Shown one piece after another: positions 34,189 through 36,804 of a DNA stretch of 64,000 nt. The notes beneath the pieces are model-generated. The model had not been told where the DNA came from. It worked only from the letters and a program-made list of their open reading frames with translations, and searched no databases. The position numbers were made by a program, and so were the translations under genes. Positions within the stretch are counted from its first letter, which is position 1, and the number at the start of each line of letters is the position of its first letter. This stretch comes from Alphaproteobacteria bacterium (GTDB lineage Bacteria; Pseudomonadota; Alphaproteobacteria; Ferrovibrionales; Ferrovibrionaceae), in NCBI GenBank assembly GCA_947473805.1, contig CANJGB010000016.1:1-64000 (forward strand), given 5' to 3'.

Positions 34189-34860
34189 ATGGGTGAAACG
34201 GTACAGATCAAGGCCGCCGACGGGCACGTGTTCGACGTCTATCGCGCCGCGCCCAAGGGCAAACCGCGGGGCGCCATCGTCACGATCATGGAGATTTTTG
34301 GCGTCAACGGGCACATCCGCAGCGTGGCCGACGGCTTCACCGCCGAGGGCTATGTGGCACTGGCGCCGGCGATCTACGACCGGGTGCAGCGGGGTGCCGA
34401 CCTCGGCTACGAAGGCGCCGATTTCGAGAAGGGCCGCGAACTGCGCGGCAAGGTGCAATGGGATTGGGTTGTCGCCGACGTCACCGCGACGGTGAAGGTC
34501 GCCAGCGAGGCTGGAAATGTGGGCATTGTCGGCTATTGCTATGGCGGAGGTATCGTCCAGGCCGCGGCCTGCCGGGTGCCAGGCCTGTCGGCGGCGGTCG
34601 GCTATTACGGCGGACCATGGGCGGAGCTGGTGAACGAAGCCCCGCAATGCCCAGTGCTGATGCACTTCGCGGCGGCCGACAAGCACATCCCGCTGACGCT
34701 CGCCGCCGAGTACAAGAAGAAGCACCCGCAGACCGTGGTGCACGTCCACGACGCCGATCACGGCTTCTCGTGCGACCAGCGGCCAGCGGTCTATGACGCC
34801 TATGCGCACTACCGCGCGCGGGCGCAGACGATGGGCTTCTTCGCCGCGACGCTGGATTAG
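34189..34860 (+). CDS. Dienelactone hydrolase family protein
   Basis: 223 residues of alpha/beta hydrolase fold. The nucleophile is Cys117 in GYCYGG, with Asp164 (AAADKH) and His191 (DADHGFSC) completing the triad, and Glu35 (IMEIFG), as in true dienelactone hydrolases. Acts on lactone or ester bonds in the cytoplasm. SD AGGAGG precedes the ATG. Four bases overlap the end of the convergent interrupted arginine kinase locus. Confidence 0.93.
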   Translation: MGETVQIKAADGHVFDVYRAAPKGKPRGAIVTIMEIFGVNGHIRSVADGFTAEGYVALAPAIYDRVQRGADLGYEGADFEKGRELRGKVQWDWVVADVTATVKVASEAGNVGIVGYCYGGGIVQAAACRVPGLSAAVGYYGGPWAELVNEAPQCPVLMHFAAADKHIPLTLAAEYKKKHPQTVVHVHDADHGFSCDQRPAVYDAYAHYRARAQTMGFFAATLD

Positions 34861-35429
34861 CTGGCCCTGGCCAGCGATTTTTCCAGATCGATCAGTTTTA
34901 CCGCGCCTTCAAGACATTCCTGCAGGCATTGAACCTCGCTTGGACCGAGCCGGCGCTTGTTCGAGATATCGTAGATATCGTCCGAGACAGCGGAATGTTC
35001 TCCGGCCGTGCCCCGCACCGCCAGATGATACTGCGCGCATATCGCATAGAATTCCGGGCTTCTTCCGGAACGCGGCAGCCTGATGTGGAAACTGACCCGC
35101 AAGCCGGTGCCGAGATTGGTCGGACAGGACGACAGATAGCCATATTCGCCGGAATGCTGGAACGTAAGCCTCCGGCCCACGACCGCCATGGCCGCGCACA
35201 GTCGCGTGAACACCGCGGCAATGTCCGCGCCGCGCTGAATCGAAATGAAGCGTAGATGATCCTCTTCATTGATCCAGGAAAAGAAGGTGCGCGCCGCGCT
35301 GGCAAAAACGCCCCGGCCAGCCGGCCAGTTCCGGTTGAGGCCAGCGGCATCCTGGAAGCGGTCGCCCCGCTTGAAGATGTGGTTGTGCAGCGGCGGCAGT
35401 CCGTCCGCGTCATCGCTCAGGCGGCTCAT
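34857..35429 (-). CDS. C-terminal part of arginine kinase (ATP:guanido phosphotransferase)
   Basis: 190 residues beginning at an ATG that directly follows the TAG. It contains NEEDHLR (54-60) with the catalytic Glu56 and Arg60, the reactive Cys102 in CPTNLGT, Arg111, and Arg139-G-T-A-G-Glu144, all conserved in phosphagen kinases, then DISNKRRLG. Arginine kinases move phosphate between ATP and arginine. AGGAG lies about 11 bases before this ATG, so re-initiation is possible. By itself this fragment lacks the guanidino-specificity domain and the first ATP-binding arginines. GC is visibly lower than in neighbours. Confidence 0.7.
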   Translation of the reverse strand: MSRLSDDADGLPPLHNHIFKRGDRFQDAAGLNRNWPAGRGVFASAARTFFSWINEEDHLRFISIQRGADIAAVFTRLCAAMAVVGRRLTFQHSGEYGYLSSCPTNLGTGLRVSFHIRLPRSGRSPEFYAICAQYHLAVRGTAGEHSAVSDDIYDISNKRRLGPSEVQCLQECLEGAVKLIDLEKSLARAS

Positions 35430-35924
35430 CTAGCTATACTCTCCTGCGAGATCGCCGGAGAAGGCGGCAAAGGCACCTTTAGCCTGGCGCTCGACTTCAA
35501 GATTTGTCTCGTATGTTGCCGTTGGCCGCAGGCCGTGGCCCGATAAATTCCGGGCCACGCGAATCCGCGTCGAGAGGACATACCGGCCGCCAATATCTGG
35601 ATTGGCGGGTTGAAAGTCTGTCGCCTCGAGGCTGCTGTGCTGCACATCGCCAACACGAAAACCAGGATGGCAATCCGCAATCACTGGCGCAAATAGCGGA
35701 GCGAAAGCGCTGTAGCTGTGAGCGTCGCCGGCATAGAGCCCAACCTCGCTGTCCGTGTTCGCTATGCCAGAGCGGATACAATCGTGCAGGCTCACGCCAT
35801 TACTTGTCTCGCGGTCTTTAAGCTGCACCCAGACATCGCGCGTCAAATATTTCTTGAGCAGCGCATGGTTGCTCGGCGCAAACGCAGGAAATTGCTGTTC
35901 GATGGGGGCGACCTTCTGGTCCAC
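35430..35924 (-). CDS. N-terminal part of arginine kinase
   Basis: 164 residues from a GTG; an in-frame TGA four codons upstream rules out an earlier start. It holds the helical guanidino-substrate domain (LLKKYLTRDVWVQLKDRETS; specificity loop SEVGLYAGD at 59-67, where arginine kinases often have SGVGIYA) and the start of the catalytic domain with STRIRVARN (118-126), which gives the phosphate-binding arginines 120 and 122. It ends at TAG after GEYS. The break is inside the catalytic domain, not at the domain boundary. Confidence 0.7.
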   Translation of the reverse strand: MDQKVAPIEQQFPAFAPSNHALLKKYLTRDVWVQLKDRETSNGVSLHDCIRSGIANTDSEVGLYAGDAHSYSAFAPLFAPVIADCHPGFRVGDVQHSSLEATDFQPANPDIGGRYVLSTRIRVARNLSGHGLRPTATYETNLEVERQAKGAFAAFSGDLAGEYS

Positions 35925-35958: not shown

Positions 35959-36804
35959 CTACAGTGCCCGGTCAATGAATTCTGCAACCACACCATTGGC
36001 GCGGGCAGGCGCAACGCTGATTGTATGGTCCAATGCACGGACGAATGGGACGCCATTAGCCTCCAGCACCAGGGCCGTCCGCGCGAGGTCGGCGGTGCGA
36101 AAGGTCAGGGTTGCCGCCTGGCCCGCGCTATCATCCATCTCGGGGTGGATGGACTCAGCCTCCTCGGATGGCATCAGGACTAGGGCATTGGCGCCGGAAA
36201 TCACCGTCAGGGTACTGTCGGTCAGATTGCAGCTGCCCTCGCCGAATAACTGGGTGCACAGCGGCAACAGGGCCGGTGGATCCGGCGCCACTACGGTGAT
36301 AGCAGAAAGGTCGATCACGCCATTCGGATGCACCAGCCAGTCGTCGCGGCGGATCAGTTCGGGCGTCAAATGCGCAGTCAGGAACAACGGCAGGACGGGC
36401 AATATGCCCTCGGCCATGTGGACAAGCGAGAAGCGCGGCAAGACCGTGCCTTCGGGCAGTTCCAGTTCGCGCGCCAGGTCCTGGTCCCTCGCCCTGATGC
36501 CCGCCGCTCGCAGGCTAGCCACCGTGGCGGCGGAATCAGCGATGCCATAGGCAAGGCCCAGCAGCCCTTCGCCGCCCTCGCGCAGGCGCTGGTCCAGGCC
36601 GGCGACGAACTGGGTCGCATCGACCACGCCAAGGAGTTCGACGTAGTTCGCGCCGAACATGATGCAGTAATTGGCGGTTCCCCAGCCGATATGCTTGCCG
36701 CGTGGCGTGACGACAAAGCCGAGCCGGCGCCAGGTATCGCGCGACGCCTCCAGGTCGTTTACGCCGACTATTGCGTGGTCAAAGCCAGTTATACCGTGGG
36801 CCAC
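35959..36804 (-). CDS. VOC-family protein with glyoxalase-like domain (PF13468 type)
   Basis: 281 residues beginning MAHGITGFDHAIVGVNDLEAS, a VOC opening with a likely metal His at 10. The central part (NYVELLG near 55, then RRDDWLVHPNGV) and a C-terminal second domain (GVVAEFIDRA) fit the larger Glyoxalase_3-like group. Function unknown. Four bases downstream of apt on the same strand. Confidence 0.85.
   Translation of the reverse strand: MAHGITGFDHAIVGVNDLEASRDTWRRLGFVVTPRGKHIGWGTANYCIMFGANYVELLGVVDATQFVAGLDQRLREGGEGLLGLAYGIADSAATVASLRAAGIRARDQDLARELELPEGTVLPRFSLVHMAEGILPVLPLFLTAHLTPELIRRDDWLVHPNGVIDLSAITVVAPDPPALLPLCTQLFGEGSCNLTDSTLTVISGANALVLMPSEEAESIHPEMDDSAGQAATLTFRTADLARTALVLEANGVPFVRALDHTISVAPARANGVVAEFIDRAL

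Follow-up and report, generated by a model that had tools for sequence, protein, structure and literature searches.

An alphaproteobacterium of the family Ferrovibrionaceae carries a phosphagen (ATP:guanidino) kinase gene that is cut by one in-frame TAG inside its catalytic domain. The gene, probably for an arginine kinase, was gained locally, and its acquisition by lateral transfer is supported. Our leading explanation, held tentatively, is that the TAG is a true nonsense mutation, which would most likely have inactivated or strongly impaired the acquired gene and would have been caught early.

A phosphagen kinase frame cut by a single TAG

In the window, the whole 64,000-nucleotide stretch analyzed here, reading of the open frames places the kinase gene on the minus strand at 35924-34857, as a single frame of 355 positions that is open throughout except for one TAG. 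The original prediction had described two frames on the same strand and in the same frame, separated by one TAG and together 355 positions long, and our reading agrees; it had left the minus strand unstated. Also borne out from the sequence were an ATG directly after the TAG, in the same frame and at a stop-start distance of 0, an AGGAG about 11 bases before it, and a break that falls inside the catalytic domain and not at a domain border. The features of the locus are as follows.

35430..35924, minus strand: N part, GTG start, 164 aa, TAG at 35432-35430; PF02807 (8.1e-27); N domain and first portion of the catalytic domain, with the guanidino-specificity loop, S118, R120, and R122
34857..35429, minus strand: C part, ATG start, 190 aa, TAA at 34859-34857; PF00217 (3.6e-53); remaining catalytic domain, with E220/E221, R225, C267, R276, H280, R304, and E309
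35430..35432, minus strand: in-frame TAG, where eukaryotic kinases have the Pro of YYPL and the bacterial relatives have Ser or Arg
35441..35445, minus strand: AGGAG, possible ribosome-binding core, ending 11 nt before the C-part ATG
35371..35435, minus strand: least conserved stretch, residues ~164-184, starting at the break
35959..36804, minus strand: glyoxalase-like (VOC) gene, the upstream neighbor, separated from the kinase start by 34 bp; one insertion border
34189..34860, plus strand: dienelactone hydrolase family (DLH) gene, convergent with the kinase gene, the two 3' ends sharing 4 bp; the other border

Read by eye, no frame other than the kinase frame was open around the stop, hence no hidden frameshift. 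No Rfam elements were found near the kinase locus, and a promoter and terminator scan of the kinase strand gave nothing convincing.

The family was identified by profile search of the halves, in which PF02807 matched the N part (93.9 bits, 8e-27) and PF00217 the C part (180.4 bits, 4e-53), both above the curated cut-offs; when the frame was joined with an X at the stop, the two domains matched in order. Against solved structures, the whole frame matched arginine kinases, the best of them being the two-domain enzyme 4rf6 (E 1.5e-206). We also considered a McsB identity and rejected it, as the kinase scored 51-107 bits on the McsB NCBIfam equivalog models, for which the cut-offs are 381-679. By sequence descent the gene is solidly a member of the phosphagen kinase family, as originally proposed; a working enzyme is not claimed. 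One continuous chain with both domains, a criterion for the family, was not found, since the TAG at 35430-35432 shows no sign of recoding.

Residues are numbered here after Trypanosoma cruzi arginine kinase (AK). In the short specificity loop, S63/V65/Y68 together with D62 and R193, which we take to be arginine-specificity positions, are kept as S59, V61, Y64, D58, and R189 (position 65 is V/I), while Y89, presumably a guanidine-specificity site, is Cys85. The AK residues S122, R124, R126, E224, E225, R229, C271, R280, H284, R309, and E314 are all kept. We assume that E225 and E314 are catalytic, that C271 is reactive, and that R309 binds phosphate; in the window protein the phosphate-binding arginines correspond to R120, R122, R225, R276, and R304, the catalytic glutamates to E221 and E309, and the reactive cysteine to C267. 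S122, H185, H284, R124, R126, R229, and R280 make nucleotide or phosphate contacts (PMC12467219). H185 corresponds to N181 in an ungapped alignment, with a His on either side. The family residues named in the original prediction are all present. Its arginine kinase call stands for the family, and arginine is a likely substrate judging from these residues, with the Cys in place of Tyr at the Y89 site as a qualification.

The active site is divided by the TAG: R124, R126, and the specificity loop lie in the N part and the catalytic glutamates, the cysteine, and the other arginines in the C part. Almost every catalytic and ATP-binding residue is present, but since they are shared out between the halves, the known mechanism implies that neither half alone would be a whole enzyme.

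Gain of the gene between two neighbors

The glyoxalase-like and dienelactone hydrolase genes of three family relatives (L074, L077, and L080) are convergent and lie 10-18 bp apart, and the kinase in the window fills exactly the slot between them. PF00217 was absent from 17 other genomes of the family and was present in 2 of 385 drawn from the class. Phosphagen kinases are rare in bacteria, with PF02807 present in 4 of the 398 genomes drawn from the phylum. GC3 is 0.63 and 0.72 in the kinase halves compared with about 0.75-0.84 in most neighbors, and the codon fit of the kinase is lower than that of all 19 genes compared. No repeats or mobile-element marks were found at the insertion borders. 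Since the slot genes adjoin in three relatives, 17 family genomes are without the kinase, and GC3 is low, a local gain by lateral transfer in the lineage of this bacterium is supported, in line with the acquisition suggested at the outset. With its insertion site visible between two genes that adjoin each other in relatives, the kinase offers one concrete case of transfer.

In two other relatives, an intradiol-dioxygenase-family gene (PF00775) replaces the glyoxalase-like gene beside the dienelactone hydrolase gene (L075:3511-4176 and L076:3421-4077), and the slot next to the latter seems to be a place of gene turnover.

The window protein is 46% identical to the 4rf6 kinase, 43-44% to arthropod and trypanosome kinases, and 31-34% to the bacterial kinases found. 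A phylogeny, which had been proposed along with the original prediction, was run on 12 kinases; it placed the window protein on a long branch of unresolved position, nearest by path to the 4rf6 kinase, and we claim no donor.

Readings of the TAG

The explanation that we rank first, though at somewhat less than even probability, is a nonsense mutation. In this course of events, a phosphagen kinase gene, probably for an arginine kinase, would have been acquired laterally and inserted between the glyoxalase-like and dienelactone hydrolase genes, and a TAG would later have arisen inside the catalytic domain, where RF1 would terminate. The N-terminal product would be without the catalytic glutamates and the reactive cysteine, and any re-initiated C-terminal product would lack two of the phosphate-binding arginines as well as the substrate loop. 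Because each product would be missing active-site parts, we infer that the gene has most likely lost its function or much of it, and the loss would be early, caught ahead of further lesions. A single TAG in an otherwise open frame, the ordinary use of TAG as a stop, the split active site, and the status of the gene as an acquired orphan all agree with this, and orphan acquired genes are often lost. However, no second lesion is present over 1,065 bases and the C part retains its catalytic residues, the stop sits at the sole site with an immediate ATG and has an SD-like AGGAG upstream, and divergence clusters at the break and not across the C part, which a recent hit alone would not produce.

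These last points bear on the reading that we rank second, a possible but less probable one, in which the gene encodes a natural two-chain kinase: termination at the TAG and re-initiation at the ATG would yield chains of 164 and 190 aa in tight stoichiometry from one mRNA, forming one active site. In the kinase gene, 77 codons are stops or one change from a stop, and only the TAG at the break has an ATG directly after it; a restart backed by an SD core within 9 nt is available to just 3 of the 77 sites, each time at this C-part ATG. Since TAGATG is not rare in the window (8 observed, 9.3 expected), only its position within the kinase gene carries weight. Coupling depends on a stop and a start that lie near each other; a distance of -8 to +10 nt has been taken as predictive of it, and close stop-start gene pairs are enriched for heteromer subunits (PMC10666635); the abutting TAG and ATG, at distance 0, lie within that range. 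That catalytic residues are kept in both halves also speaks for two chains. Against it, the break lies within the catalytic domain, the split form was found in no second genome, and the AGGAG is spaced at 11 nt, compared with 5-6 nt at the dienelactone hydrolase gene and rplY of the same genome. The AGGAG also codes for part of the conserved LAGE motif, so its SD role may be fortuitous.

The least conserved stretch was examined against the columns identical in seven eukaryotic kinase domains. Residues ~164-184 keep 1 of 10 such invariant positions, compared with 66 of 82 elsewhere in the window protein (Fisher 1.9e-5, a post hoc value, as the stretch was picked after the data were seen; no other run of 21 residues in the protein scores lower). 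That it starts at the break would be expected of a new N-terminal tail free to drift; yet four distant, unsplit bacterial kinases are also loose here, keeping 3-4 of the 10 residues (p 0.08-0.16), which suggests that the stretch is looser in bacteria anyway and that part of the looseness predates any split. The pattern would fit an old break with the remainder under selection, and just as well a later hit on a loop that had become loose in this lineage. The absence of insertions and deletions noted originally holds only for the total length: one phmmer alignment has a small compensated insertion/deletion within ~20 residues after the stop, and the MAFFT alignment, gap-free there, has its poorest conservation in this stretch. 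An AlphaFold2 model of the read-through frame, made from four sequences, had a mean pLDDT of 49, too low for the break to be located on it, and was set aside.

The sequence does not decide between a nonsense mutation and a two-chain enzyme, and both of these original options stay, the nonsense mutation ranked first. The further step, that the acquired kinase has turned into a stable two-subunit enzyme with a catalytic domain split by one stop and joined by stop-start translational coupling, we consider unlikely on balance. If the halves work together, a single stop codon can convert a one-chain enzyme into a two-chain enzyme; if they do not, the locus is a snapshot of an acquired gene under loss.

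If the TAG stems from a mistake in sequencing or assembly, or from an allele of a minority strain fixed in the consensus, the real gene would have a sense codon and encode an ordinary one-chain kinase; we regard this as improbable. The assembly has 58 contigs and is 95% complete, the frame has no other stop, and a single miscalled base would be enough to create this one, as 3 of 4 bacterial relatives have Ser at the aligned position. However, none of the 16 syntenic neighbor genes tested has an in-frame stop, no other gene was found in the window with a Pfam family cut by a stop, and the placement of the ATG would be a coincidence. Elsewhere in the window, neighbors that share a frame have the look of normal separate genes lying side by side. 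Given these neighbors and the 16 intact syntenic genes, a generally error-rich assembly is unlikely, while a single-base error at the kinase TAG is possible.

The last reading, that TAG is decoded as an amino acid (by a suppressor tRNA, as pyrrolysine, or through programmed read-through) to give one full-length enzyme, is very improbable: the frame is unbroken, family features lie on both sides of the TAG, and most residues would be tolerated at a position that varies in relatives, but prfA (RF1) is intact (485 bits), no CUA-anticodon tRNA is among the 42 tRNA hits of the 95% complete genome, PylS gave no match over the cut-off and only weak ones resembling those in 13 of 14 control genomes, and TAG ends 24 of the 69 coding-like ORFs in the window. 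On these four grounds, recoding, and with it the amber read-through originally offered, is unlikely; low-level leaky near-cognate read-through may occur, or a tRNA may lie in the missing ~5% of the genome. Also absent among the tRNA hits examined were tRNA-Trp and tRNA-Ile (GAT), probably through assembly gaps.

Comparison with other kinases

No second genome with a split kinase was found. When 84,980 genomes were scanned with the one protein as query, the only match was L003 (Roseivirga); it was discarded, because a single short peptide had matched by chance in a frame full of stops. Viral contigs, searched twice, gave no kinase match, and phages and plasmids gave only McsB-like partial matches (25-32% identity), with the exception of a plasmid of Candidatus Bandiella woodruffii (a ciliate symbiont of the Rickettsiales). 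This plasmid has an intact phosphagen kinase annotated as hypothetical (L053:3893-4990). Its N-terminus is hydrophobic and may be a signal peptide, and transposase genes follow immediately downstream of the gene. An intact, divergent phosphagen kinase was also seen in a genome of 1.3 Mb from the same class (L002:1495-2643); R229 is Thr, H284 is Lys, and Y68 is Ser, and as several usual residues are absent, its activity or substrate may differ. In another class of the phylum, 2 of 78 genomes have a phosphagen kinase, and these are 72% alike (L048:1459-2532 and L049:1453-2538). All four of these kinases have both Pfam domains in an intact, unsplit frame, and they are the bacterial proteins 31-34% identical to the window protein.

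The 4rf6 arginine kinase, which we take to be from the sea anemone Anthopleura, resembles the window protein at 46% identity to each of its domains and in the STRIRVAR, NEEDHLR, CPTNLGTG, and RGxxGEH motifs. In contrast, 4rf6 is an uninterrupted chain of two fused kinase domains, whereas the window gene has one kinase domain pair and is cut by the TAG at the YYPL strand. The McsB protein-arginine kinase has the catalytic domain PF00217 in common with the window protein and is without PF02807.

Bacterial arginine kinases are already known from Desulfotalea, Myxococcus, Moritella, and Sulfurovum (cited in PMC6429109), and whether bacterial phosphagen kinases are ancient or transferred is debated (PMC6429109). 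Like these, the window gene is a eukaryotic-type phosphagen kinase in a bacterium, for which transfer is debated. Unlike them, for which the publications consulted describe no split form, it is split, and it is a new member of the group, either broken or in two parts.
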